From: Devosia insulae DS-56
GTDB lineage: Bacteria; Pseudomonadota; Alphaproteobacteria; Rhizobiales; Devosiaceae
Assembly (NCBI RefSeq): GCF_000970465.2
Contig: NZ_LAJE02000044.1
Span: 1-64,000, forward strand
Direction of reading: 5' to 3'
Length of the DNA stretch: 64,000 bases
Positions 5,153 to 29,205 of the stretch are shown piece after piece (within the stretch, counting starts at the first letter, position 1; each line of letters opens with the position of its first letter). The notes below the pieces were generated by a model. That model searched no databases. It was given only the letters and a program-made list of their open reading frames with translations, and was not told where the DNA came from. The position numbers and the translations under genes were made by a program.

Positions 5153-6939
5153 GGCTTGGTGCCCTTACGCTTCCTGGGCGCCTCGGAGTGCGGCGGGTTG
5201 GTGCCGGGCTGGTTCTGCGGGATGAAGTCCTCGGCGGCGCCCGGCACGCTGTAGTCATAGGCCCAGCGATAGACCACCGGCAGTTCGCGGCCGAAATTGC
5301 CGTGCACGGGCGGCGTCTCGGGGGTCTGCCACTCGAGCGTGGTGGCTCGCCACGGGTTGCCGCCGGAGGGTTTGCCGTGCCGGATCGACCAGATCAGGTT
5401 GAAGACGAACACCAGCTGCGCCGCGCCGACGATCAGCGCCATCACGGTGATGAAGATGTTGAGATCATGCGCCGACGGCGGCTGGAACGAGATGTCGCCG
5501 GATTCGAAGTAGCGCCGCGGCACCCCCATGATGCCGAGATAGTGCATGGGGAAGAAGATCAGGTAGGCGCCGAGGAAGGTGACCCAGAAGTGGAGGTGCG
5601 CCATGGTGTTGTCGAGCATGCGCCCGGTGATCTTTGGGTACCAGTGGTAGATGGCGCCGAAGATCACCAGGATCGGCGCGACCCCCATCACCATGTGGAA
5701 ATGCGCCACGACGAACATGGTGTCCGACAGCGGTACGTCGACCACCACATTGCCGAGGAACAGCCCGGTGAGCCCGCCATTGACGAAGGTGACGATGAAG
5801 GCCAGGGCGAACAGCATGGGCGGATTGAGGTGGATGTCGCCGCGCCACAGCGTGAGCACCCAGTTGTAGACCTTGATCGCCGTCGGCACGGCGATGATCA
5901 GCGTGGTGACGGCGAAGAAGAACCCGAAATATGGGTTCATGCCGCTCACATACATGTGGTGGGCCCAGACCACGAAGCTCAGCGCGCCGATGATGACGAT
6001 GGCCCAGACCATCATGCGGTAGCCGAAGATGTTCTTTCGGGCATGGGTGCTGATCAGGTCGGAGACGATACCGAAAGCCGGCAGCGCCACGATGTAGACC
6101 TCGGGGTGGCCGAAGAACCAGAACAGGTGCTGGAACAGGATCGGGCTGCCGCCGTCATGCGGCAGCAGCTCACCCATCTCGACCAAAGCCGGCATGAAGA
6201 AGCTGGTGCCGAGCAGCTTGTCGAACAGCATCATGACGCAGGCGACGAACAGCGCCGGGAAGGCCAGCATGGCCATGACGGTGGCGATGAAGATGCCCCA
6301 GACGGTCAACGGCATGCGCATCAGCGTCATGCCGCGGGTGCGGCCCTGCAGCACGGTGACGATGTAGTTGAGCCCGCCCATGGTGAAGCCGATGACGAAC
6401 AGGATCAGCGACACCAGCATCAGGACGATGCCGGATTCCTGGCCGGGGGTGTTGGAGAGGATGGCCTGCGGTGGATAGAGGGTCCAGCCGGCGCCGGTCG
6501 GGCCGCCGGGGGTGAACCAACTGGCCACCAGCACCAGCACGGCCAGCAAATAGGTCCAGTAGCTGAGCATGTTGACGTAGGGGAACACCATGTCCCGCGC
6601 CCCCAGCATCAGCGGGATCAGGTAGTTGCCGAAGCCACCGAGGAACAGCGCGGTGATCAGGTAGATCACCATGATCATGCCGTGCATGGTGATGAACTGG
6701 TAGTAAGCCGCGGCGTCGATGAAGGTAAGGAAGCCGGGGAAGGCCAGCTGCATGCGCATCAGCCAGCTGAGCACCAGCGCCAGCATGCCGATGGCGAGCG
6801 CCGTACTGGCATACTGGATGGCGATCACCTTGGCGTCCTGCGAGAAGACGTAGCGCGTCCACCAGCTGCGCGGATGATAGAGTTCGACATCCGGAAACTC
6901 GGCGGCGTGGGCATCGGGCCCATGAGTGGCGTCGACCAT
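5149..6939 (-). CDS. coxN: Cytochrome c oxidase subunit I (CoxN-like)
   Basis: A 596-residue catalytic subunit. His86 (FITMHG) and His415 fit the low-spin heme ligands; His278 in HPEVY, with Glu280 for the proton channel, and His327/His328 (AHHMY) fit the CuB ligands; His413 in AHFHM fits the high-spin heme. About twelve to thirteen helices are visible. The start at 6939 (MVDATHG) follows GAGGAGG; the frame opens further but without such a site. It oxidises cytochrome c and reduces oxygen while pumping protons. Confidence 0.93.
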   Translation of the reverse strand: MVDATHGPDAHAAEFPDVELYHPRSWWTRYVFSQDAKVIAIQYASTALAIGMLALVLSWLMRMQLAFPGFLTFIDAAAYYQFITMHGMIMVIYLITALFLGGFGNYLIPLMLGARDMVFPYVNMLSYWTYLLAVLVLVASWFTPGGPTGAGWTLYPPQAILSNTPGQESGIVLMLVSLILFVIGFTMGGLNYIVTVLQGRTRGMTLMRMPLTVWGIFIATVMAMLAFPALFVACVMMLFDKLLGTSFFMPALVEMGELLPHDGGSPILFQHLFWFFGHPEVYIVALPAFGIVSDLISTHARKNIFGYRMMVWAIVIIGALSFVVWAHHMYVSGMNPYFGFFFAVTTLIIAVPTAIKVYNWVLTLWRGDIHLNPPMLFALAFIVTFVNGGLTGLFLGNVVVDVPLSDTMFVVAHFHMVMGVAPILVIFGAIYHWYPKITGRMLDNTMAHLHFWVTFLGAYLIFFPMHYLGIMGVPRRYFESGDISFQPPSAHDLNIFITVMALIVGAAQLVFVFNLIWSIRHGKPSGGNPWRATTLEWQTPETPPVHGNFGRELPVVYRWAYDYSVPGAAEDFIPQNQPGTNPPHSEAPRKRKGTKP

Positions 6940-11458: not shown

Positions 11459-13159
11459 ATGGAAAAACCGGTGATCCTTGCCGTCGACGACGAACCTTCG
11501 GTTCTCGCCGCGGTGACTCGCGACCTGAGGCGGCACTACGCGGCGAGCTATGATATCGAGCGTGCGGCCTCCGGGGCAGAAGCCCTCGAGGTGCTCGGAG
11601 AGCTCAAGCTGGCCAACCGGGTGATCGCGCTGTTCATCGCCGACCAGCGGATGCCGCAGATGAGCGGCGTCGAGTTCCTGGCGCGGGCAATGGAGCTCTA
11701 CCCGGACGCGCGGCGCGTGCTGCTCACCGCCTACGCCGATACCGACGCGGCGATCCGGGCGATCAACGAGGTGAAGCTCGACCACTACCTGATGAAGCCG
11801 TGGCACCCGCCGGAAGAGCAGCTCTACCCGGTGCTCGACGACCTCTTGGACGACTGGCGGGCCAACTATCAGCCGGTGTTCGAGGGGGTGCGGGTGGTCG
11901 GCCATCGCTGGCTGGCCGACGGCCACCGGGTGCGCGACTTCCTCGCCCGCAACCTCGTGCCGTATCGTTGGCTCGACATCGAAACCGACGCCGAGGCGAC
12001 GACGCTGCGCGAGCTGGCGGGGGCCGCGGCGGAACCACTGCCGCTGGTGATCCTCGCCGACGGCACCGCACTGTCGCGCCCGACCATCGCCGCGCTGGCC
12101 GAAAAGGTCGGGCTGCACACCCATGCGGTGGCCGAAACCTATGACCTGGTGGTGGTCGGGACCGGGCCGGCCGGATTGGCAGCGGCCGTCTATGGTGCGT
12201 CGGAAGGCTTGCGGACGCTGCTGATCGAGCGCGAGGCGCCCGGCGGGCAGGCGGGCACCAGCTCGCGGATTGAGAACTATCTCGGCTTTCCTGTGGGACT
12301 CAGCGGCGCCGACCTGACGCGCCGCGGCGTGCAACAGGCGCGGCGCTTCGGGGCGGAGATCCTGACGCCGGTCGAGGCGCTGAGCCTCGAGACGCGGGAC
12401 GGCTACCACATCCTGACGCTGAGCAATGGCAGCAAGGTCGCGGCGCAGGCGCTGATCGTCGCGACCGGGGTATCGTATCGGCTGCTCGATGTGCCGGGAG
12501 CGGAGCGGCTGTCGGGCGCCGGGCTCTATTATGGCGCGGCGATGACCGAGGCGATGGGGACGGCCGGACAGGATGTCTTCGTCGTCGGCGCCGGCAACTC
12601 CGCCGGCCAGGCGGCGCTGCACCTGGCGCGTTACGCCCGCTCGGTGACGCTGCTGGTGCGTGGAAAATCGCTGGCCGACAGCATGTCGCAATACCTGATC
12701 GAGCGGATCGAGGAGGCCGAGAACGTCGCGGTACAGACCGGCGCCTCGATCCATGCGCTGGTCGGCGAGGCAAGCCTCGAGGCGGTGGCGGTGCTCGACA
12801 GCGCCAGCGGCGCGGTCACCGAGGTGCCGGCGCGGGCGGTGTTCGTGTTCATCGGCGCCTCGCCCCGCACCGACTGGCTGAAGGATAAGCTGCAGCTCGA
12901 TGCGCAGGGCTTTATCCTTTCGGGAGCGGACCTGGTGCGCGAGGCTGGTCGCAAACCGGAGGGCTGGTTAGCGGAACGCGAGCCGTTCTGGCTGGAAACC
13001 AGCGTGCCGGGGATTTTCGTCGCGGGCGATGTGCGGCGGCAATCGACCAAGCGCATCGCTTCGGCGGTCGGCGAAGGGGCGATGGCGGTGACCTTTGTGC
13101 ACCAGCATCTGCGTGGCCCTGCCCCGGCGCAGCGACCGCCGCCGGCGGCCGGTGGCTGA
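11459..13159 (+). CDS. Response regulator receiver fused to thioredoxin-reductase-like flavoprotein
   Basis: A 566-residue fusion. Residues 1-125 form a CheY-like receiver with Asp62 (phosphoacceptor) and Lys113. A linker domain of about 100 residues leads to an FAD/NAD(P)H oxidoreductase: FAD motif GTGPAG at 234-239 and NADPH motif GAGNSAG at 377-383. The CxxC that defines thioredoxin reductase is missing; the matching place reads YYGA near 358-361. It therefore cannot reduce thioredoxin through the normal disulfide relay. It starts two bases after the cyclase stop and precedes a histidine kinase, its likely phosphodonor. Confidence 0.88.
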   Translation: MEKPVILAVDDEPSVLAAVTRDLRRHYAASYDIERAASGAEALEVLGELKLANRVIALFIADQRMPQMSGVEFLARAMELYPDARRVLLTAYADTDAAIRAINEVKLDHYLMKPWHPPEEQLYPVLDDLLDDWRANYQPVFEGVRVVGHRWLADGHRVRDFLARNLVPYRWLDIETDAEATTLRELAGAAAEPLPLVILADGTALSRPTIAALAEKVGLHTHAVAETYDLVVVGTGPAGLAAAVYGASEGLRTLLIEREAPGGQAGTSSRIENYLGFPVGLSGADLTRRGVQQARRFGAEILTPVEALSLETRDGYHILTLSNGSKVAAQALIVATGVSYRLLDVPGAERLSGAGLYYGAAMTEAMGTAGQDVFVVGAGNSAGQAALHLARYARSVTLLVRGKSLADSMSQYLIERIEEAENVAVQTGASIHALVGEASLEAVAVLDSASGAVTEVPARAVFVFIGASPRTDWLKDKLQLDAQGFILSGADLVREAGRKPEGWLAEREPFWLETSVPGIFVAGDVRRQSTKRIASAVGEGAMAVTFVHQHLRGPAPAQRPPPAAGG

Positions 13160-21703: not shown

Positions 21704-22915
21704 ATGTCTAAGTCGAAGAACCCGCTGAGCGACGAAAAGAACCGCGCGCCGGCCACCATGCTCGTCCATGGCGGCACGCAGCGCAGCCAGTTCAAAGAGA
21801 CCTCCGAAGCGATCTTCATGAACTCGGGCTATTCCTACCCGAGCTCGCAATATGCCGAAGACCTGTTCCTCAACAAGATCAACAAGCCGGCGCATAACTA
21901 TTCGCGCTTCGCCAACCCGACGATGGACATGTTCCAGGATCGGATGGCGCTGCTTGAAGGGGCAGAAGCGGCGCGGGCCTTCGCCACCGGCATGTCGGCG
22001 GTCACCAACGCGGTGATGAGCCAGGTGCGGGCCGGCGACCATATCGTTGCGGCGCGGGCGCTGTTCGGGGGCTGTCGCTACGTGGTCGAAGACCTGATGC
22101 CGCGGTTTGGCGTCAGCTCGACGCTGGTGGATGGGCGCGACCCCGCGAACTTCGAGCGGGCGATGCAGCCCAATACCAAGGTGATCTTCATCGAGACGCC
22201 GACCAACCCGACGCTCGAGCTGGTCGACATCGCCGCGGTGGCCAAGATCGCCAAGGCGCACGGCGCCAAGCTGATCGTCGACAATGTGTTCGCCACCGCC
22301 CTGTTCCAGAAGCCGCTGCAACTGGGCGCTGACCTCGTCACCTATTCGGCGACCAAGCATATCGACGGCCAGGGCCGGGCGCTGGGCGGCATTGTGCTCG
22401 GTTCGAAAGCGCTGATCGAGGGCGACGTGCACACCCTGCTCCGGCAGACCGGGCCGTCGCTCTCGCCGTTCAATGCCTGGGTGCTGCTGAAGGGGCTCGA
22501 GACGCTGCCGATCCGGGTCAAGCAGATGACCGAGAGCGCTGCCAAGGTGGCTGAGTTCCTCGCCGGCCATCCCAAGATCGAGCGGATCTCTTATCCGTTT
22601 CACCCCTCGCACCCGCAATACGAGCTGGCGAAGCGCCAGATGGCCAGCGGCTCGACGCTGGTGGCGCTTGAGGTGAAAGGCGGACGCGAGGCGGCGTTCG
22701 CGCTGTCAGACTCGCTGGCGGTGATCCTGATCTCGAACAATCTTGGCGATGCCAAGTCGCTGATCACCCATCCGGGCACCACGACGCATGCCCGGTTCAC
22801 CGAGGAAGTACGGCTGGAATCGGGGATCACGCCGGGCCTGCTGCGGCTTTCGGTGGGGCTCGAGGACGCGGACGATTTGATCCGCGATCTCGAGTACGGG
22901 CTCAGCCAGGTCTAG
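21704..22915 (+). CDS. metZ: O-succinylhomoserine sulfhydrylase
   Basis: A 403-residue PLP enzyme of the Cys/Met metabolism family. The PLP lysine is in SATKHIDGQGR, with YSRFANPT near residue 65 and ETPTNPTLELVD in the expected order. It joins O-succinylhomoserine with sulfide to give homocysteine in methionine synthesis. A SAM-II riboswitch and terminator precede it, so it should be repressed when S-adenosylmethionine is plentiful. It ends in CTAG, shared with the stop of the convergent carrier-protein gene. Confidence 0.93.
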   Translation: MSKSKNPLSDEKNRAPATMLVHGGTQRSQFKETSEAIFMNSGYSYPSSQYAEDLFLNKINKPAHNYSRFANPTMDMFQDRMALLEGAEAARAFATGMSAVTNAVMSQVRAGDHIVAARALFGGCRYVVEDLMPRFGVSSTLVDGRDPANFERAMQPNTKVIFIETPTNPTLELVDIAAVAKIAKAHGAKLIVDNVFATALFQKPLQLGADLVTYSATKHIDGQGRALGGIVLGSKALIEGDVHTLLRQTGPSLSPFNAWVLLKGLETLPIRVKQMTESAAKVAEFLAGHPKIERISYPFHPSHPQYELAKRQMASGSTLVALEVKGGREAAFALSDSLAVILISNNLGDAKSLITHPGTTTHARFTEEVRLESGITPGLLRLSVGLEDADDLIRDLEYGLSQV

Positions 22916-23133
22916 CGGCCCAACAGTTCGGCGACGCGCCGGACTGAGGTAATCGAAGCGATCTGCTCGGCCGTGAGGCTACGGCCGAGCGCGCTCTCGA
23001 TGCCAGCGACAATCGCCATATGGCCGAGACTGTCCCAGGCGGCGACCGAGCTCATGTCGGCGCCGATGGCGATGGCGCCAGGGCAGTTGAGGGCGTCGCC
23101 GACAATGGCGCAGGCCTGCTCATCGGGGCTCAT
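22912..23133 (-). CDS. Acyl/peptidyl carrier protein of the RiPP-like operon
   Basis: A 73-residue, mostly acidic helical protein with the phosphopantetheine attachment motif DSLGHM (Ser about residue 35) and the following helix IVAGIESALGRSL, typical of carrier proteins. The start at 23133 lies inside the end of the GNAT gene (14-base overlap). It is the last gene of the seven-gene overlapping operon. Inferred role: holds an acyl group activated by the adenylate-forming ligase and presents it to the acetyltransferase-like protein. Confidence 0.82.
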   Translation of the reverse strand: MSPDEQACAIVGDALNCPGAIAIGADMSSVAAWDSLGHMAIVAGIESALGRSLTAEQIASITSVRRVAELLGR

Positions 23134-23701
23134 CGGGCGCCTTCCAGAACGGCCCGCGCATCCACTGATCGCGGAACATCTCGAAGTTGACGAAGTCGAT
23201 GATGTCGCCGGTGACCGGGTTCTGCTTCTGCCGGTGCCAGGTGCCGACATGGTCGAACCCCAGCCGGCGGTAGCTGAAGATCGACGAAACGTTGCGGGAA
23301 TCGACCACACCGTAGAAGCGTTCGATGCCGCAATTGGCGAAGAAGTGGTTGAGCAGCCGGGCGCGAACCTCGACCACGACGTTCTTGCCCCACCAGTCGC
23401 GATCATGCAGCGCGACAGTGCCGAAGGCCGAGCGGTAGCCCTGCAGCCGCACCATGTGGGCGCCGATCGGCACCGCCTCACCCTTGGGGATAATGGCGAA
23501 GGCAAAGCGGTTCCTGGTGCGGGGCAGCGGTCCACGCAGCAGCCAGTGCGGCATCGACCGCGGCTTGGTGGTCTGCATCAGGCCGTTGAGGATATCCGGG
23601 TCATGCCGCCAGCGGTTGGTGACGCGCAGGGTTTCGAGCATCCCCATCGGCTTCAACATGAAGCGCTCGGTTTCCAGCGGGCCGATAACCAGCTTGCTCA
23701 T
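23120..23701 (-). CDS. GNAT-family N-acyltransferase
   Basis: A 193-residue GNAT protein of the RimJ/RimL-like type: LETERFMLKPM at the start, a central beta region (FAFAIIPKGE..IGAHMVR), then WWGKNVVVEVRARLLNHFF as the acyl-CoA-binding segment and NVSSIFSYRRLGFDHVG near the end. It begins within the stop of the ligase gene (ATGA overlap). With ligase and carrier next to it, transfer of an acyl group from the carrier to a peptide amine is more likely than plain acetylation; this is inference. Confidence 0.83.
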   Translation of the reverse strand: MSKLVIGPLETERFMLKPMGMLETLRVTNRWRHDPDILNGLMQTTKPRSMPHWLLRGPLPRTRNRFAFAIIPKGEAVPIGAHMVRLQGYRSAFGTVALHDRDWWGKNVVVEVRARLLNHFFANCGIERFYGVVDSRNVSSIFSYRRLGFDHVGTWHRQKQNPVTGDIIDFVNFEMFRDQWMRGPFWKAPDEPR

Positions 23702-25089
23702 TGGCGTTCGACCATGGCGCGGACGTCGGCGCGGACGATCTTGCCGCGATCGTTGCGCGGGATCGCGGCAACAGCGAACAGCTTTGAGGGCACCGCCTCG
23801 TCGCGAACGCGGGCCCGGCACCAGGCCTTCAGCGCTTCGGGATCGAACGTTGCCCCGTCAGCGAGGACGATGGCCGCCGCTACCGCCTCGCCGGCAATGG
23901 CGTCGGGGATACCGAAGGCACAGGCCTCGACGATCGCCTCATGCCGCTCCAGCAGCATGTCGATCTCCTCGGCCTGGATCTTGATGCCACCGCGGTTGAT
24001 CTCCGATTTGCTGCGCCCGACGAGGATGAGGTTGCCCGCTGCGTCCAGTTCGCCGATATCGCCGGTGCGGAACCAGCCATTGGTGAACGCGGCTGCATCG
24101 AGATCGGGGCGCTGCCAGTACCCCAGCATCATCGAGGGGCTCTGCACCAGCACCTCGCCGCGCCCGCCGCCATCGATGGCGACGCTGCCGCCCCAGAGCC
24201 GGCCGACATAGCCGTCGCGCGCCTCGGCCTCATCGAGGCTGCCGCCGCCGATCCAGTTGGCCGTCTCGGTCATGCCGAACATGTTGAACACCCGGCGCGT
24301 GCCGCACCACTCGGCGATGGCCCGCCAGTGCTCGATCGAGAGCGGCGCCGAGCCGACATGCACCCGCTCGAGCACCGGCTCGGGCCGGGCCGAAACGCGC
24401 AGCGCCAGCTTCCAGAAAGAGGGGACCGAACTCATGAAGCTGATGCGGTTGGTGGACAGGTAGCCGGCGAGGCCACCGAGCTCGCTGAGCGCCGGGCCGG
24501 GCCAGAGATGCACCCGTCCGCCGGCCAGCAGCGGTGTCAGCACATTGCCGATCAGGCCGTGGCCGAAGAACACCGGCAGCACGCAGAGCGTTTCGCGCAG
24601 CACCTCGGGGCCGATCTCAGCGATATTCAGCGCGGCGCGGGCGAACAGGCTGCGCACCGAGTGAACGATGCCCTTGGGCCGGCCGGTGGTGCCCGAGGTC
24701 ATCAAGATGAGCGCCGGCTCATCGAGGCGCAGCGGCCTCGGCTCGGACGTTCCCGCGGCCTCTTCGCGCGGTCGCTGTGGTCCGAGCCACAGCGACGCGC
24801 CGGTGGTCTCGACCACGTTCTCGCACTCTTCCGGCCGCAGGCCCGGGTTGACCGCGACCGCAATAAGTCCGACCTCCCAGCAGGCGAAGATGGCGATCAG
24901 GTAGTCGACTGGATTGGCCTCGGCCACCACGGCGCGGGCGCCCGATGTCACGCCGTGGCGCGACAGCTCGGCGGCCTTCTCCTTCACCCGCAGGCGGATG
25001 CCCGCCGCATCGAGCGTTGTGCCCGTCCGGACGTCGACGAGGGCCGCGCTGGCCGGAAGCATGGCGGTGAAGGAGAGGTTGCCGATCAT
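23698..25089 (-). CDS. Adenylate-forming acyl ligase (AMP-dependent synthetase)
   Basis: A 463-residue ANL-family enzyme with all core motifs: LILMTSGTTGRPKGIVHS (A3), NMFGMTETANW (A5), GWFRTGDIGELD (A7), GRSKSEINRGGIKI (A8) and the catalytic Lys in NDRGKIVR (A10). It activates a carboxylic acid as an acyl-AMP and passes it to a thiol. It is somewhat shorter than typical acyl-CoA synthetases. Overlaps both neighbours by four bases. In this operon it occupies the activation role that an asparagine-synthetase-like cyclase has in lasso clusters, but its substrate is unknown. Confidence 0.85.
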   Translation of the reverse strand: MIGNLSFTAMLPASAALVDVRTGTTLDAAGIRLRVKEKAAELSRHGVTSGARAVVAEANPVDYLIAIFACWEVGLIAVAVNPGLRPEECENVVETTGASLWLGPQRPREEAAGTSEPRPLRLDEPALILMTSGTTGRPKGIVHSVRSLFARAALNIAEIGPEVLRETLCVLPVFFGHGLIGNVLTPLLAGGRVHLWPGPALSELGGLAGYLSTNRISFMSSVPSFWKLALRVSARPEPVLERVHVGSAPLSIEHWRAIAEWCGTRRVFNMFGMTETANWIGGGSLDEAEARDGYVGRLWGGSVAIDGGGRGEVLVQSPSMMLGYWQRPDLDAAAFTNGWFRTGDIGELDAAGNLILVGRSKSEINRGGIKIQAEEIDMLLERHEAIVEACAFGIPDAIAGEAVAAAIVLADGATFDPEALKAWCRARVRDEAVPSKLFAVAAIPRNDRGKIVRADVRAMVERQ

Positions 25090-26057
25090 CCGGCGCCTCG
25101 CGGCACGATGCGCTGCAGGCCGCGGAAGCTGTGGCGGCGGACCTTGGAGAGGAAAGCCGTCGGCGCAGCCAGCACCGCGGCGCCGTCGACGAGGCGCGTT
25201 GCAAGGCGGCTGGCGCTGCCGCCGGCGATCCGGCCGGCAGCGACGCCGGCCCCGGGGGCGTCGAACAGCTCGGCGACAAGCTCAAGACAGAGGCGCGCCT
25301 CGAGGGCGAGACCCAGTTGGCGGGCAATCTCGGGCAGCGCAGTCACCTCGTCGGGCGAGAGGTGGCGAAACGCCTGCAGCAGGTCGACCAGCAGGCGCAA
25401 CTGGTGGAACTTGTGCCCGAGCGCCGCGTGGACCACCGCGACGAAGAACTGCGGCATGCCGGCGTTTGCATTGCCCTGGCCGCTCTGCATGAACTCGGCA
25501 TAGCCGAAGCTGATGCGCCGGCGCAGGCCCTGATAGTGAACGAGGTTGCCGTGTACTTCGATGAGCAGCGCATCCATGCTGGGCTGGATCCACTTTTCTT
25601 CCTGGTTCTGCTCGGTGTGATCGAGCAGCGGCTTCAGGAACAGCTGGTAGCCGAGACTGGTCAGCAGTTCGCCGATCGGCGCGCGGGCCGAGGGCGCGAC
25701 CATGATGTCGATGTCGGTGAACGGGCGATCCGATGGCGTTGGGTAGATCTGGCGGGCGAACACCGGGCCTTTGACGATCACCGCCTCGAGCTGCCGGTCG
25801 GCAATATAGCGGTCGACCTTGGCGGCGATGCCGCGCAGATGCAACGACAGGCCGATAAGCAGGGTCAGCTCGCTTCGCGCCGCCTCGAGGTCGGCAGTGC
25901 GGTGCTGGGCTGCAAGCTTGCGGGTCACCACCGGCAGGACGTTGTGATCGCGCGCCAGCTTGAGCAGCGGGTCGACAGCCTCCGCTGGTACGGTCACAGC
26001 CGGCGCCTCGGGGTCGGCCAGGCGGCAGAGCAGCGTGTCGCGCTCGGCCGGCGTCAT
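25086..26057 (-). CDS. Nucleotidyltransferase-fold protein of the kind found in lasso-type clusters
   Basis: A 323-residue protein of the uncharacterised nucleotidyltransferase group (PF14907-like). The NTase signature is VIVKGPVFARQIY followed by FTDIDIMV, with the metal-binding D-x-D near residue 116. Members occur as tailoring genes in lasso peptide clusters beside HPr-kinase-like genes. It overlaps the kinase and ligase genes by four bases on each side. The reaction is unknown; nucleotidylation of the peptide or of a partner protein is possible. Confidence 0.8.
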   Translation of the reverse strand: MTPAERDTLLCRLADPEAPAVTVPAEAVDPLLKLARDHNVLPVVTRKLAAQHRTADLEAARSELTLLIGLSLHLRGIAAKVDRYIADRQLEAVIVKGPVFARQIYPTPSDRPFTDIDIMVAPSARAPIGELLTSLGYQLFLKPLLDHTEQNQEEKWIQPSMDALLIEVHGNLVHYQGLRRRISFGYAEFMQSGQGNANAGMPQFFVAVVHAALGHKFHQLRLLVDLLQAFRHLSPDEVTALPEIARQLGLALEARLCLELVAELFDAPGAGVAAGRIAGGSASRLATRLVDGAAVLAAPTAFLSKVRRHSFRGLQRIVPRGAG

Positions 26058-27049
26058 GCGAGAAGCTTCGGGATGTTGAGCGCCGCCAGCATGACCGGCG
26101 CCAGGTCGGTCGGATCCGACCCCGCAGATAGCCGATAAGCGGGTACGGCTCGAACCAACTCGCCGAGCCGCTTGAACAGCTCGCGCTCGACCTGCGGGAC
26201 CCCGGCACGTGTCGAGCGCACGTTGTCGGCGACGGCCAGGGCAAGCACCTCGGCCTTGCTGGTTGGCTCACAGCGGCTTGCCAACTCGCCGCTGCGTTCG
26301 AGCACGAAGACCGCGGCGATCTCGCGGGCGGCGATACTCTCGACGCTCACCGTCGTGCGGAGTGCCGACAGCGCCACCGGCCGCTCGTCTTCGGCGCTCC
26401 AGTCGCCGCTCAACAGCGGCTGCACCCAAGGTAGCATTTCGGCGGTTCGCCGATGCACCTTGAGACTGCGCGGCATACCCCAGGCAGTCGGACGTTCGCC
26501 GGAGACGTTGCATGCCATGGCATCGTCGGAACAGAGGCCGAGGCCGCCGGCGGCCATAGCCAAGGTCGAAGTGGTCTTGCCGGCGCCACTGCGGCCGAAG
26601 ATCAGCGCCACGCGGCCATCCGGCAAGGTCAGGCCGGCGGCATGAACGAGAAACTGGTTCGCGGCGAGCAGGGCCGCCTGCAGAGCCAGTTGCCCGCAGG
26701 TCATGACGATACGCTCTTCGGCACCCGGGGCGACGATGATACTGGCCTCGCGCGCCGTGTCGGAGAGCGAGAGCGAGATGATGCCGGGAAACACCAGCAC
26801 CCGGGCGTCGGGGCCCTGCCAAAACTGGGCATCACCCTCATCGAGGATCGGCCCCTCGTAGAGCGGCTCGGTGTCTTCGGGCATCGACAGCGGCTGGCCC
26901 GAGGTGATCGTGAGGCCGTAGGCAAGCGCAGAGGTCGGCAGGGGGCGGGAGCGGCCGGCAAAGATGCGGCCGTAGAAATCCACGAGCACCGGCTGCACGG
27001 CGGTGACGCGCAGCGTGGCGCCCTGCAGATCGAAGAACTTCTGGATCAA
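26054..27049 (-). CDS. HPr-kinase-like peptide kinase
   Basis: About 331 residues from a TTG start at 27049, overlapping the stop of the B2 gene (TTGA) and preceded by AGGGGAG; upstream codons in frame are antisense-like and lack a start. The C-terminal half has the P-loop FGRSGAGKTTS and the CSDDAMACN motif of HPr kinase. Relatives in paeninodin-type lasso clusters phosphorylate a serine of the precursor. Every precursor tail here contains a Ser, a possible target. Confidence 0.8.
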   Translation of the reverse strand: MIQKFFDLQGATLRVTAVQPVLVDFYGRIFAGRSRPLPTSALAYGLTITSGQPLSMPEDTEPLYEGPILDEGDAQFWQGPDARVLVFPGIISLSLSDTAREASIIVAPGAEERIVMTCGQLALQAALLAANQFLVHAAGLTLPDGRVALIFGRSGAGKTTSTLAMAAGGLGLCSDDAMACNVSGERPTAWGMPRSLKVHRRTAEMLPWVQPLLSGDWSAEDERPVALSALRTTVSVESIAAREIAAVFVLERSGELASRCEPTSKAEVLALAVADNVRSTRAGVPQVERELFKRLGELVRAVPAYRLSAGSDPTDLAPVMLAALNIPKLLA

Positions 27050-27519
27050 ATACCGGCTCCCCTGGGGTCCGCCGGGGTGTGACCCGGGGCCGCGTGCACG
27101 TGAATCTGCACCTGACCCGGAATGCGGGCGTTGATGACTTCGACACCGTCGAGCGTCACCCAGCAATGGGCACTGAGACTGGGTTTCCCCATGGATTTGG
27201 GGTCGACGGAGAAATGCAGTCGCGGGTCGTAGCCACAGCGCCGCAACGCGGCAAAGCCCACGAGGCCGGTGCGGAGGCACCGATTGTTGCGCATCAGGAT
27301 CGGCCAGCGCGCGACTCGCCGAACGGCGCGCGCGATATATGACACCGGGAAACGCGGCCAGCTGCTGGGCGGCACCGACGAGGCATCGGACAGAATCTGG
27401 GAGAAATCGCGCCCGGCGATGCGGGCCGGCAGCGTTCGCGCGCTGATCCAGACCTGCAGCCGAAACGCCAGCCGCGCTAGCAGCCCGGCCCCAGCCCGCT
27501 CGGACAGCTCATGCGGCAT
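27046..27519 (-). CDS. Lasso-type B2 leader peptidase (transglutaminase fold)
   Basis: A 157-residue protein matching the lasso B2/PF13471 peptidases. The catalytic Cys is in NNRCLRTGLVGFAALRRCG, the His in LSAHCWVTL and the Asp shortly after in DGVEV, in the normal order and spacing. These enzymes cut the leader peptide after it is delivered by a PqqD-like B1 protein, encoded just upstream with an 11-base overlap. The gene is followed by the kinase with a four-base overlap. Confidence 0.85.
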   Translation of the reverse strand: MPHELSERAGAGLLARLAFRLQVWISARTLPARIAGRDFSQILSDASSVPPSSWPRFPVSYIARAVRRVARWPILMRNNRCLRTGLVGFAALRRCGYDPRLHFSVDPKSMGKPSLSAHCWVTLDGVEVINARIPGQVQIHVHAAPGHTPADPRGAGI

Positions 27520-27778
27520 GCACGATGATGCCTTCGGCCACGAGGCCGGCGATCAGCTCGGGCAGGTCGTCGGCAAGTGTTGCAGCCTCGATCTCGAATT
27601 CGTCGGCCATGCGCTGCGCCACCGCTTCGACGGAGCGAACCCCGTCGAGGTGCTGCAGAAACGAGAGCGAAGTGTCGTTACAGGAGTAAAGCTGGCCGCT
27701 GCCGAGCAGCAGAATGACAGCGCCCTCACCTACGGGTTCGAACGAAACATCGTCACCGAGGCGATACACTGCATCCAT
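27509..27778 (-). CDS. PqqD-like RiPP recognition element (lasso B1-type)
   Basis: An 89-residue PqqD-family protein: a three-stranded winged-helix fold with YRLGDDVSFEPVG, AVILLLGSGQLYSCNDTS and helices ending LIAGLVAEGIIV. Such proteins bind the leader of RiPP precursors and bring it to the peptidase. It is the first gene of the enzymatic operon, downstream of five precursor-like genes and a hairpin. Its ribosome-binding site is weak. Confidence 0.85.
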   Translation of the reverse strand: MDAVYRLGDDVSFEPVGEGAVILLLGSGQLYSCNDTSLSFLQHLDGVRSVEAVAQRMADEFEIEAATLADDLPELIAGLVAEGIIVHAA

Positions 27779-27810
27779 CTACGCACCAGAGAACCTGCGA
27801 AAAACAACAT

Positions 27811-27842
27811 TGCAGATCCGGCAGCCTAGCTGCCGGACTGCA
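27811..27842 (-). terminator. Hairpin with T run between precursor array and enzyme operon
   Basis: TGCAG-A-TCCGGCAG (27811-27824) pairs with CTGCCGGA-CTGCA (27830-27842). On the minus strand it is followed by TGTTGTTTTT. It should end most transcripts from the precursor genes and let only some read into the enzymes, giving a high peptide to enzyme ratio. Confidence 0.75.
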
Positions 27843-27883
27843 GGAGAAATCTCAGGGCCGGCAGAAGGTGCCCCGAGCAACCG

Positions 27884-27967
27884 TCACTTCGGCTTGCTGG
27901 TAACGGCGACGACCGACGCAAGCTTCTGTTCCTTTGCGAACGTCGGCTTGGTATAGATCTTCTTCAT
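27884..27967 (-). CDS. RiPP precursor-like peptide 1
   Basis: A 27-residue gene with a GGAGG ribosome-binding site. The leader (1-21) starts MKKIYTKPTF and continues with a K-x-QKL block; it shares the Y-x-K-P pattern seen in lasso leaders. The tail after the leader is VTSKPK. The peptide has no acidic residue at tail position 7-9, so no lasso ring is possible. It is nearest to the PqqD gene. Confidence 0.8.
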   Translation of the reverse strand: MKKIYTKPTFAKEQKLASVVAVTSKPK

Positions 27968-27979
27968 TGCAGCCTCCAC

Positions 27980-27994
27980 AGACCTATCAGGTCT
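27980..27994 (-). other. Small hairpin at the stop codon of precursor 2
   Basis: AGACCT and AGGTCT form a six-base stem with a three-base loop overlapping the stop codon. There is no T run after it on the minus strand, so it is probably not a terminator. Confidence 0.4.
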
Positions 27995-28070
27995 TCTTGC
28001 TGACCACTGCGGTGATCGCAGCCAGCTTCTGCTGCTTGGCAAGCGTTGGCTTGGCATACACTTTCTTCAT
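27987..28070 (-). CDS. RiPP precursor-like peptide 2
   Basis: A 27-residue paralogue beginning MKKVYAKPTLAKQQKL, with the leader ending in ITA and the tail VVSKKT. A GAGGGA site lies upstream. It keeps the Y, K-P, QKL and I-T-A positions of the other copies, which shows that the peptide, not just the DNA, is under selection. Confidence 0.82.
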   Translation of the reverse strand: MKKVYAKPTLAKQQKLAAITAVVSKKT

Positions 28071-28185
28071 ATCGATCCCTCATGAGTCTGCCCCGATGCA
28101 GACCGGCAGTATAGCAGAGCTACCGTGCCGAGTGAACTCACGCTTGGCTCTGGCGTGGCGCACGCATCTGGTAAATTACAAAACG

Positions 28186-28209
28186 CGCGTGCCGATGGCT
28201 CGGCACGCG
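28186..28209 (-). terminator. Terminator after precursor 3
   Basis: A perfect ten-base stem (CGCGTGCCGA with TCGGCACGCG) around TGGC, then CGTTTTGTAAT on the minus strand. It separates precursor 3 from precursor 2. Confidence 0.75.
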
Positions 28210-28237
28210 GTTGAAATTCTCAGAAACCGACCGAAAA

Positions 28238-28321
28238 TCAGACCGGCTTGCTCGAAACGGCAGTAATCGCCGCCAGCTTCTGATCCTTGACGAACGTCGG
28301 CTTGGTGTAGGTCTTCTTCAT
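28238..28321 (-). CDS. RiPP precursor-like peptide 3
   Basis: A 27-residue paralogue beginning MKKTYTKPTFVKDQKL, with leader end ITA and tail VSSKPV. GAGGG upstream. Codons differ from the other copies mainly at third positions, again pointing to a translated peptide. Confidence 0.83.
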   Translation of the reverse strand: MKKTYTKPTFVKDQKLAAITAVSSKPV

Positions 28322-28424
28322 AACTATGCCCTCGTGGTGCCTGCCCTAGTGCAGTCAATCGAGTCATCCTAGCAGAAGTATGGCCTGCCGTGAACCGCGC
28401 TCGAACCCGGTGACAACAGAAAAC

Positions 28425-28449
28425 CCGCGCGCCGAAGTTCGGCACGCGG
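28425..28449 (-). terminator. Terminator after precursor 4
   Basis: CCGCG/GCCGA pairs with TCGGC/CGCGG around a three-base loop with one mismatch pair, followed by GTTTTCTGTT on the minus strand. It closely resembles the hairpin after precursor 3, so the unit of gene plus hairpin seems to have duplicated together. Confidence 0.7.
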
Positions 28450-28472
28450 TTCATGCATCAGAAAATCGAGGA

Positions 28473-28565
28473 TCAGGCAGGGTTCTTGCTGGTAACCGGC
28501 ACGGCGGTGATCGCGGCCAGCTTCTGTTCTTTGACCAGCGAGGGCTTGGTGTAGGTTTTCTTCAT
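28473..28565 (-). CDS. RiPP precursor-like peptide 4
   Basis: The longest copy, 30 residues, beginning MKKTYTKPSLVKEQKL, leader end ITA, tail VPVTSKNPA. The tail shares V-T/S-S-K with the other copies. Its ribosome-binding site is weaker (GGACGTGAAG). Confidence 0.82.
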   Translation of the reverse strand: MKKTYTKPSLVKEQKLAAITAVPVTSKNPA

Positions 28566-28623
28566 CTTCACGTCCAAATATCTAGCGGCAGGGCCAGGCT
28601 AGGCTGCCCCCTGATGCCGGCAA

Positions 28624-28710
28624 TCAGTTCTTGCTCGAAACCGGTTCGGCGGTGATCGTGGTCAGCTTCTGCTCCTTGACGAGCACCGGCTTGGAATAGG
28701 TCTTCTTCAT
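28624..28710 (-). CDS. RiPP precursor-like peptide 5
   Basis: A 28-residue copy beginning MKKTYSKPVLVKEQKL, leader end ITA, tail EPVSSKN. It is the first of the array in transcription order, preceded by GGGG and by the terminator of the upstream gene, so a promoter between 28711 and about 28800, or read-through, must drive the array. Confidence 0.82.
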   Translation of the reverse strand: MKKTYSKPVLVKEQKLTTITAEPVSSKN

Positions 28711-28720
28711 AGTATGCCCC

Positions 28721-28746
28721 AAAAAACTCCCTGCTCGAACAGCAGG
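28721..28746 (-). terminator. Terminator of the small gene at 28804
   Basis: CCTGCT and AGCAGG form a six-base stem around a five-base loop (28730-28746). On the minus strand it is followed by GAGTTTTTT. It separates the 76-residue gene from the precursor array. Confidence 0.78.
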
Positions 28747-28803
28747 ATAGGGGCAAACTAGCTGAGTCGGCGGATCCCGCAACCCGCCCAGTTCGCAAGC
28801 GTG

Positions 28804-29034
28804 CTAGAGTTTGCGGTAGAACATCACCCGTTGCGCGAGTTCGCTGCCCTCGTAGCGCGTCACCTCGGCGACCAGGTTGGCGAAATGACCGTTCAGCACC
28901 AACGGCTGGTCGGTCAACTGGCGCGCCGCCGACATCGGTTCGGGCGCCTCCACCGTTTGCGGCAGGGTGACGCTGGGTGGCTTGGCCCGGAAGTCGTAGA
29001 GCGTGACCGTGTATTTGGGCATCGACATTTCCAT
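28804..29034 (-). CDS. Small hypothetical protein
   Basis: A 76-residue soluble protein of unknown function with a beta-rich start (KYTVTLYDFRAK) and an Arg-rich end. In-frame ATGs at 29034, 29028 and 29022 are all possible. It is transcribed toward the precursor array but a terminator intervenes, so a link with the peptides is doubtful. Confidence 0.6.
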   Translation of the reverse strand: MEMSMPKYTVTLYDFRAKPPSVTLPQTVEAPEPMSAARQLTDQPLVLNGHFANLVAEVTRYEGSELAQRVMFYRKL

Positions 29035-29205
29035 CGCCTGAACTCGGATCGCGATAGCCGACGTTAGCGAAGCCTAGCTGACAGTTCGCTGAACTCACGC
29101 CCGACCTTGCGAAGAATTCACCCACCTTACCAAGCCCTAATGCGACGTCTTGACCGGTGCGCTCTACTTTAGCTGCAACGGGTATTGGGTTCCGAAGGTG
29201 CGGCG

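Follow-up and report, generated by a model that had tools for sequence, protein, structure and literature searches.

The subject of this study is an array of five very short genes at positions 27884 to 28710 of a stretch of DNA from Devosia insulae DS-56 (the window: 64,000 nucleotides, contig NZ_LAJE02000044.1, positions 1 to 64,000), together with the enzyme genes that adjoin it. The system probably represents a lasso-derived pathway for ribosomally synthesized and posttranslationally modified peptides (RiPPs) in which the lasso cyclase was lost or never present, and which would make families of short linear peptides phosphorylated on a core Ser and further decorated. The original prediction, made from the letters of the window, had described five paralogous minus-strand genes of 27 to 30 residues with a common leader of about 21 residues; five such open reading frames (ORFs) were recovered, and a search of the genome returned these five and no others. 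It had also named the short peptides as substrates of the adjacent PqqD/B2 pathway, and this assignment, made from sequence, is supported by the presence of similar arrays upstream of PqqD in all four genomes that carry the operon. Three points go beyond it: an enzyme set of the phosphorylated-lasso type minus the cyclase, a module of AMP-forming ligase, GNAT-type acyltransferase and acyl carrier protein (ACP), and a precedent in Bacillota.

In the proposed pathway, a PqqD-like RiPP recognition element (RRE) would bind the YxKPx[LF] motif of the leader. The HPr-kinase-like protein would phosphorylate or polyphosphorylate the conserved core Ser, the usual next residue being Lys or Gly, and the NTP_transf_5 protein would add a further group to the core phosphate. 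The RRE-guided B2 peptidase would cut one residue after the conserved Thr, between T-A and the core, so that each of the five precursors would yield a core of 6 to 9 residues. The AMP-ligase would probably activate an acid and load the carrier protein, and the GNAT protein would move the acyl group to an amine, the simplest acceptors being the new N terminus or a core Lys. We infer phosphorylation, B2 cutting and further decoration by analogy with related systems; acylation and its acceptor are a guess from gene content, and export and function are likewise guesses.

Precursor genes and their cores

All five genes lie on the minus strand. The first in transcription order is precursor 5 (28624..28710, 28 residues), which reads MKKTYSKPVLVKEQKLTTITA followed by EPVSSKN, has counterparts in two relatives and is assigned its putative cleavage site from Thr at position −2. 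It is followed by precursor 4 (28473..28565, 30 residues, ITA followed by VPVTSKNPA), precursor 3 (28238..28321, 27 residues, ITA followed by VSSKPV), precursor 2 (27987..28070, 27 residues, ITA followed by VVSKKT) and precursor 1 (27884..27967, 27 residues, VVA followed by VTSKPK). The frames share a leader of 21 residues with the consensus YxKPx[LF]xKxQKLxxxxA and differ in their tails, which are 6 to 9 residues long and, as had been claimed, contain Ser-Lys in all five. YxKPx[LF] occurs in all five leaders and Thr at −2 in four of them; in copy 1, the I-T-A of the leader pattern originally given is replaced by V-V-A. When 13 copies were aligned (the five of the window and eight from two relatives, one of the 13 having a GTG start that was read as Met), M1, K2, Y5, P8, K12, Q14, L16 and A21 were found to be invariant. 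A purine-rich stretch resembling a ribosome-binding site was recognized by eye before copies 1, 2, 3 and 5 and was weak before copy 4, in agreement with the claim that most copies have such a site.

The frequent third-position differences reported for the array were also confirmed. Pairwise differences between the leaders fell at the first, second and third codon positions 47, 20 and 70 times in the window and 46, 56 and 85 times in Devosia sp. Root413D1 (locus L009, genome G088), the third position taking the largest share in each (70 of 137 and 85 of 187, respectively). For the leaders, the ratio of nonsynonymous to synonymous differences (pN/pS) was 0.35 in the window and 0.34 when all 13 copies were pooled; the arrays of two relatives gave 0.39 and 0.29, and a comparison of the first copy of each of the three genomes gave 0.18. 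The dN/dS comparison that had been suggested as a check on the genes thus gave values that were not near 1. A search of the D. insulae genome with copy 4 (5.75 Mb, 410 contigs, E ≤ 10), in which the first look proposed five candidates, all of them array copies, matched exactly the five places of the array (E 4.8e-14 to 1.3e-4). The NCBIfam lasso-precursor model NF033528 matched the three window copies scanned weakly (E 0.011 to 0.1), below its curated cut-off. The window cores, at 6 to 9 residues and with Asp or Glu at positions 7 to 9 in none, depart from lasso cores in both length and acidic residue.

Similar short genes beside homologous operons, proposed as a further check, were found in relatives. 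B2 of this type occurs in 4 of 136 family genomes (D. insulae included), all of one genus, and all four carry precursor genes just upstream of PqqD: five in the window, five in L009, three in L014 (genome G087) and three in L016, the last taken from the ORF list by eye. The identity of the B2 proteins to that of the window ranges from 45 to 77% across these relatives. The L009 array also holds, at 6193-6240, a sixth leader-like remnant whose ATG, as judged by eye, is in another frame, which points to gain and loss of precursor copies.

Of 20 cassettes of this kind (that of D. insulae, those of three genus relatives and 16 others), 13 were found to contain short genes with a leader of this type, the cassettes elsewhere that have any carrying one to six. 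The 39 peptides collected were obtained by a leader-only pattern (23), by eye (4) and by a profile that includes core columns (12), so that the last 12 are not independent of core sequence; the rows from L040, L043 and L048 score weakly in the profile (E 0.26 to 0.56), that of L040 having also been found by the leader pattern. With cores delimited by a cut one residue after Thr at −2, as deduced from lasso precursors, the 39 cores are 6 to 18 residues long (median 9), mostly 6 to 12 with one weak row of 18. Ser stands at core positions 3 to 6 in 39 of 39, a count that takes in the weakly scoring rows and related copies, and within-core shuffles gave a mean of 22.7 (maximum, 32). The pair S[KG] at the same positions was found in 32 of 39, and shuffles gave a mean of 4.9 (maximum, 13). 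Asp or Glu at positions 7 to 9 was present in four cores, all from other genera and none from the window. In L042 (7357-7755, minus strand), a lasso-type leader, YHKPTLTKGSVLSDVTA (E 0.015), runs on into a longer protein, in which we take an IRLKRDI-like stretch to resemble S74/tail-fibre chaperone domains.

Operon enzymes and the absence of a cyclase

The array stands immediately ahead of genes for PqqD-like and B2 proteins, as had been stated, and all seven enzyme genes are on the minus strand. The PqqD-like RRE (B1; 27509..27778) matched PF05402 (E 2.3e-12), and its best solved-structure match was TfuB1 (6jx3, E 1.9e-5), presumably a lasso B1 protein. The transglutaminase-like B2 leader peptidase (27046..27519) matched PF13471 (E 3.4e-13) and scored 50.2 bits against NF033537, lasso_biosyn_B2 (cut-off, 33); the solved-structure search with B2 gave no match, and Cys81, His118 and Asp124, which we take to be the catalytic residues, were invariant in the four sequences aligned. 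The HPr-kinase-like protein (26054..27049, 331 residues, TTG start at 27049) was identified through a profile of eight relatives that matched the HPr kinases 1ko7 and 1jb1 (E 4e-4 to 6e-4); its P-loop and Asp-Asp are invariant in the eight sequences, its matches to TIGR04355/TIGR04352 and PF07475 were below cut-off, and as a single sequence it matched only P-loops among solved structures. It is followed by the NTP_transf_5 nucleotidyltransferase-like protein (25086..26057; PF14907, E 1.8e-23).

The acyl module completes the operon and consists of an AMP-forming acid ligase (23698..25089; PF00501, E 8.8e-51; PF13193, E 3.8e-13), a GNAT acyltransferase-like protein (23120..23701; PF13302, E 2.1e-8) with remote matches only among solved structures, and an acyl/peptidyl carrier protein with an intact D-S-L-G-H motif (22912..23133; PF00550, 22.2 bits against a cut-off of 20.8). 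The substrate of the ligase cannot be deduced because its structure search returned many CoA/AMP ligases. Adjacent enzyme genes overlap by 4 to 14 bases when the kinase is started at TTG 27049.

No lasso cyclase was found among the operon genes or among the three partial Asn_synthase matches in the D. insulae genome (E ≤ 0.01; two score above the Pfam cut-off). Each of the three was considered as a cyclase and rejected, one being a tRNA thiouridylase-type protein, another the N-acetyl sugar amidotransferase WbuX (314 bits; cut-off, 203) and the third NAD+ synthase (754 bits; cut-off, 479). The three genus relatives with the operon gave no Asn_synthase match at E ≤ 1e-8.

The same absence was observed across the order. 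The kinase profile matched in 20 of 397 order genomes (D. insulae included), and of the stretches around the 19 other matches, 16 contained PqqD, B2, kinase and NTP_transf_5 protein together; in the three that did not (L053-L055, one on a 6.5-kb contig) the kinase-like gene alone was matched. An independent search with the B2 model gave 31 places in 25 of 394 order genomes. Of the B2 genes that belong to kinase cassettes, 0 of 16 had an Asn_synthase match at a distance of 5 kb or less, the nearest lying 9.4 kb away (G267), while of the other B2 places, defined as those with no such kinase beside them in the order-wide kinase search, 13 of 15 had one that close, at 0.1 to 3.5 kb. These counts pool thresholds of 0.01, 1e-8 and 1e-6, and no probability was attached to the comparison because the rows are related. 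Two of the cassettes lie near contig ends (G406, with no Asn_synthase match in the genome, and G290, with two on other contigs). That the search can detect cyclases beside B2 was supported by five genomes of genus g76 (G267, G202, G237, G337 and G356), in which a B2/Asn_synthase locus and a cyclase-less kinase cassette lie 9 to 30 kb apart on the same contig. At the class level, the kinase profile (eight rows) matched the D. insulae genome alone among 385; the negatives of the order and class searches are weak because only five first-look candidates per genome were scored. For two B2 genes, L087 (G210, contig 3) and L091 (G455), no kinase cassette was matched and no Asn_synthase match lies nearby; they possibly belong to further cyclase-less types.

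The genomic block and its neighbours

The operon is part of a block of approximately 6.2 kb (22916..29100, edges approximate) that is present here and absent at the same site in relatives. It comprises the seven enzyme genes, acyl module included, the five precursors and a gene for a 76-residue protein, which are present or absent together at the site. The flanking genes are metZ-like (a pyridoxal phosphate enzyme of Cys/Met metabolism) and macA-like (an HlyD-type protein) and were sought in 19 genus genomes, with matches in 17 and 15, respectively. They lie 102 to 419 bases apart in G098, G102, G085, G095 and G097, where the block is absent, and 6.0 to 6.4 kb apart where it is present (the window, G088 and G087); in the remaining genomes one flank is missing or the two are on different contigs, and in G101 the operon is on another contig than metZ. 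Comparison of junction DNA with the window at four of the empty sites (G097 not among them) showed that homology stops at the metZ stop codon and resumes near 29100. Whether the neighbouring HlyD/MacB-type genes are a dedicated exporter was also considered. The idea was set aside, since the HlyD-type gene is also present at the five block-free sites, a comparison that rests on that gene, the MacB-type gene not having been searched.

The 76-residue protein (28804..29034, minus strand) has homologues at the same place in L009 and L014; it gave no Pfam match at E ≤ 0.1, and no homologue was matched in L016. Between this gene and the first precursor lies a hairpin with a T run (28729..28747, minus strand), directly before the ribosome-binding site of precursor 5, which it touches. 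It may serve to terminate the 76-residue gene or to attenuate the array, and near-identical sequence was seen by eye before the first precursor in L009 and L014. Two further terminator-like hairpins on the same strand follow precursor 4 (28425..28449) and precursor 3 (28186..28209); by count they are not above chance, as the three terminator-like sites in the region do not exceed shuffles (mean, 3.8).

Known systems, alternative readings and implications

The closest known system is that of the Linear Polyphosphorylated Peptides (LPP) of Bacillota (Popov et al. 2026), which is cyclase-free and in which LppK polyphosphorylates Ser3 of the precursor and no activity of LppN was seen (PMC13381572). 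The likeness consists of a discrete RRE, an HPr-kinase-like kinase (remote here), an NTP transferase, a YxxP leader, variable cores and no macrolactam cyclase (PMC13381572). LPP and lasso clusters, those of paeninodin among them, are often side by side in Bacillota, as are the kinase cassettes and B2/Asn_synthase loci in the five g76 genomes. The differences are that LPP has an archaeal-type, SpI-like signal peptidase, where the window has B2, and an MsbA-like exporter, of which there is none among the eight non-precursor genes of the block; that its leader, YxxPxVLxHQxIxFETxxS, is not matched by that of the window (PMC13381572); and that some cassettes here have an acyl module. No signal peptidase was matched among the eight genes, the rest of the genome not having been searched. 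LPP clusters have one to three precursors of 35 to 200 residues, with a core of 45 residues in the tested case, against five precursors with cores of 6 to 9 here, and their authors restrict LPP to Bacillota (PMC13381572), while the present system is alphaproteobacterial.

The phosphorylated lasso peptides (paeninodin type, pseudomycoidin and Bsf) share with the window a lasso-type leader, B1, B2 and an HPr-kinase-like kinase, and pseudomycoidin and Bsf also have an NTP transferase (PMC10368454, PMC9266682). In Bradymonas, BsfK acts on a lasso precursor and phosphorylates its Ser3 (PMC10368454); hexoses on phospho-Ser require PsmN, the review allowing that a host enzyme adds them (PMC9266682). 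In these systems a cyclase is present and the core is of sufficient length to thread a ring; the window system has neither feature. Judged as a lasso system, it has the RRE-motif leader, Thr at −2 (four of five), B1 and B2, but not an Asn-synthetase-family cyclase or a threadable core with Asp or Glu at positions 7 to 9. Since three LPP features and two lasso features are missing, the system was classed among the lasso-derived linear phosphopeptides, as a variant of them. The open-licence literature searched, including the accessible parts of PMC10368454, PMC7470986, PMC12710340, PMC9266682 and PMC13381572, gave no account of a B2/kinase system without cyclase in Alphaproteobacteria. The original prediction had known of no RiPP with tails so short and without ring-closing acidic residues. 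The lack of such residues is not unprecedented, because cyclase-less kinase RiPPs were described in Bacillota in 2026 (PMC13381572); no described case of B2 processing with such short arrayed cores was found in the open-licence literature as far as accessible.

Several observations weigh against the proposed pathway. The relation of the kinase to HPr kinases is only remote, its single-sequence Pfam match scoring 13.5 bits against a cut-off of 33.3. Thr at −2 is replaced by Val in two and by Ser in one of the 13 aligned leaders, and the paralogous leaders (pN/pS 0.35) are less constrained than PqqD (pN 0.10, pS 0.56) and the kinase (pN 0.08, pS 0.48; window versus L009). No precursors were found in 7 of the 20 cassettes (L037, L038, L039, L041, L042, L049 and L050), and the core Ser count takes in the weak rows and related copies mentioned above. 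Family searches found no exporter among the eight non-precursor genes of the block. The trio of AMP-ligase, GNAT and ACP lies beside 6 of the 20 cassettes (D. insulae, three genus members, and two of other families, L043 and L052); in L014 an internal deletion takes the phosphopantetheine-attachment motif out of the carrier (11766-11939); and no PqqD, B2, kinase, NTP_transf_5 protein or precursor was matched in 12 larger GNAT loci (one each from 10 other genomes, plus a further one from G512 and the second D. insulae copy, G634 being left out).

For the acyl module, 11 of the 14 other cassettes had a more distant ligase-family match in the fetched stretch (E 1e-13 to 2e-30), without GNAT or ACP, and in L052 five precursors directly adjoin the ligase. 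Acylation may be dispensable in L014, since its carrier lacks the phosphopantetheine motif; the other enzyme genes of that operon (G087) were matched strongly despite the deletion. A GNAT search at the class level matched 12 of 385 genomes, D. insulae included, and ligase and GNAT occurred together in 10 of the 11 others, nine with ACP and the tenth with a weak ACP match. A trio specific to the RiPP pathway was considered and dropped, as the trio also occurs in class genomes with no matched RiPP gene nearby, and on this ground it looks like a recruited module. Loci L062-L071, from ten other class genomes, hold AMP-ligase/GNAT pairs, mostly with ACP, and show no consistent neighbours in the three ORF lists (L077, L080 and L081). 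A second GNAT and carrier pair, with no matched AMP-ligase, is present in D. insulae (L075, contig C197, 8648-9537); its carrier motif is W-S-S-L instead of W-D-S-L, its neighbours are of unrelated families, and the adjoining frame is presumably alpha/beta-hydrolase-like. Lipidated RiPPs with GNAT-type acyltransferases, namely, selidamides, lipolanthines and goadvionins, have a GNAT-fold enzyme beside a short precursor, as here; to our knowledge, they have neither a lasso leader/B2 system nor an HPr-kinase-like protein.

The module raises the possibility that acylation is the main modification of linear lipopeptide-like products, in which case the kinase and NTP_transf_5 protein would have the acyl or carrier part, and not the core Ser, as their substrate. 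The ligase, GNAT and ACP are indeed part of the block and accompany cassettes in two other families, but kinase and NTP_transf_5 protein are kept in the 14 of 20 cassettes in whose fetched stretch no trio was found, Ser occurs in every collected core, and the L014 carrier is truncated; we consider this explanation unlikely. A true lasso pathway, with its cyclase encoded elsewhere or recently lost from a decaying cluster, would account for the lasso type of RRE, B2 and leader, and order genomes do have B2 beside Asn_synthase, in the g76 genomes 9 to 30 kb from a kinase cassette. It was nevertheless judged very improbable, given the identity of the three Asn_synthase matches, the lack of matches in the relatives, and the shortness and missing acidic residue of the window cores; the leader pN/pS of 0.35 and the open enzyme frames speak against decay, one relative's truncated carrier apart.

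The absence of an exporter from the block, together with hairpins around the array that may mean regulation, would fit an intracellular role in which the short genes give signals or scaffolds and the tails, once modified and freed of the leader, serve, for instance, as tags or to regulate the block. Variable tails and several paralogues per genome are, by our reading, the usual signature of secreted products, and we regard such a role as quite unlikely. That the frames are chance ORFs or an open REP-like DNA repeat is hardly credible: they are all shorter than 31 codons, but they occur at five genome places only, show a third-position excess and a pN/pS of 0.35, and keep their position and leader in other species. 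A cyclase-less, lasso-derived pathway to short linear phosphopeptides is thus the preferred reading. More tentatively, and with rather less than even confidence, we suggest that it forms a separate RiPP class in Hyphomicrobiales, in which RRE and B2 would release arrays of linear peptides of 6 to 12 residues, with Ser (poly)phosphorylated, capped by NTP_transf_5 and N-acylated in some lineages, to give combinatorial short phospho-(lipo)peptides from one operon.

The system suggests that lasso leader recognition is used without lasso formation outside Bacillota, with its own B2 peptidase kept. Genes of 27 to 30 codons are often skipped by gene finders, and such pathways are therefore easily overlooked. 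Of almost 8,000 proteins retrieved by the discrete lasso RRE model of RRE-Finder, only approximately 4,000 are accompanied by leader peptidase and lasso cyclase, the rest being treated as possible false positives (PMC7470986); cassettes like the present one may explain part of that rest. The role of LppN was left open in the LPP report (PMC13381572). As core Ser, kinase and NTP_transf_5 protein are all conserved and the cores have fewer than ten residues, the window offers a small and tractable system for the role of NTP_transf_5 proteins in lasso and LPP clusters.

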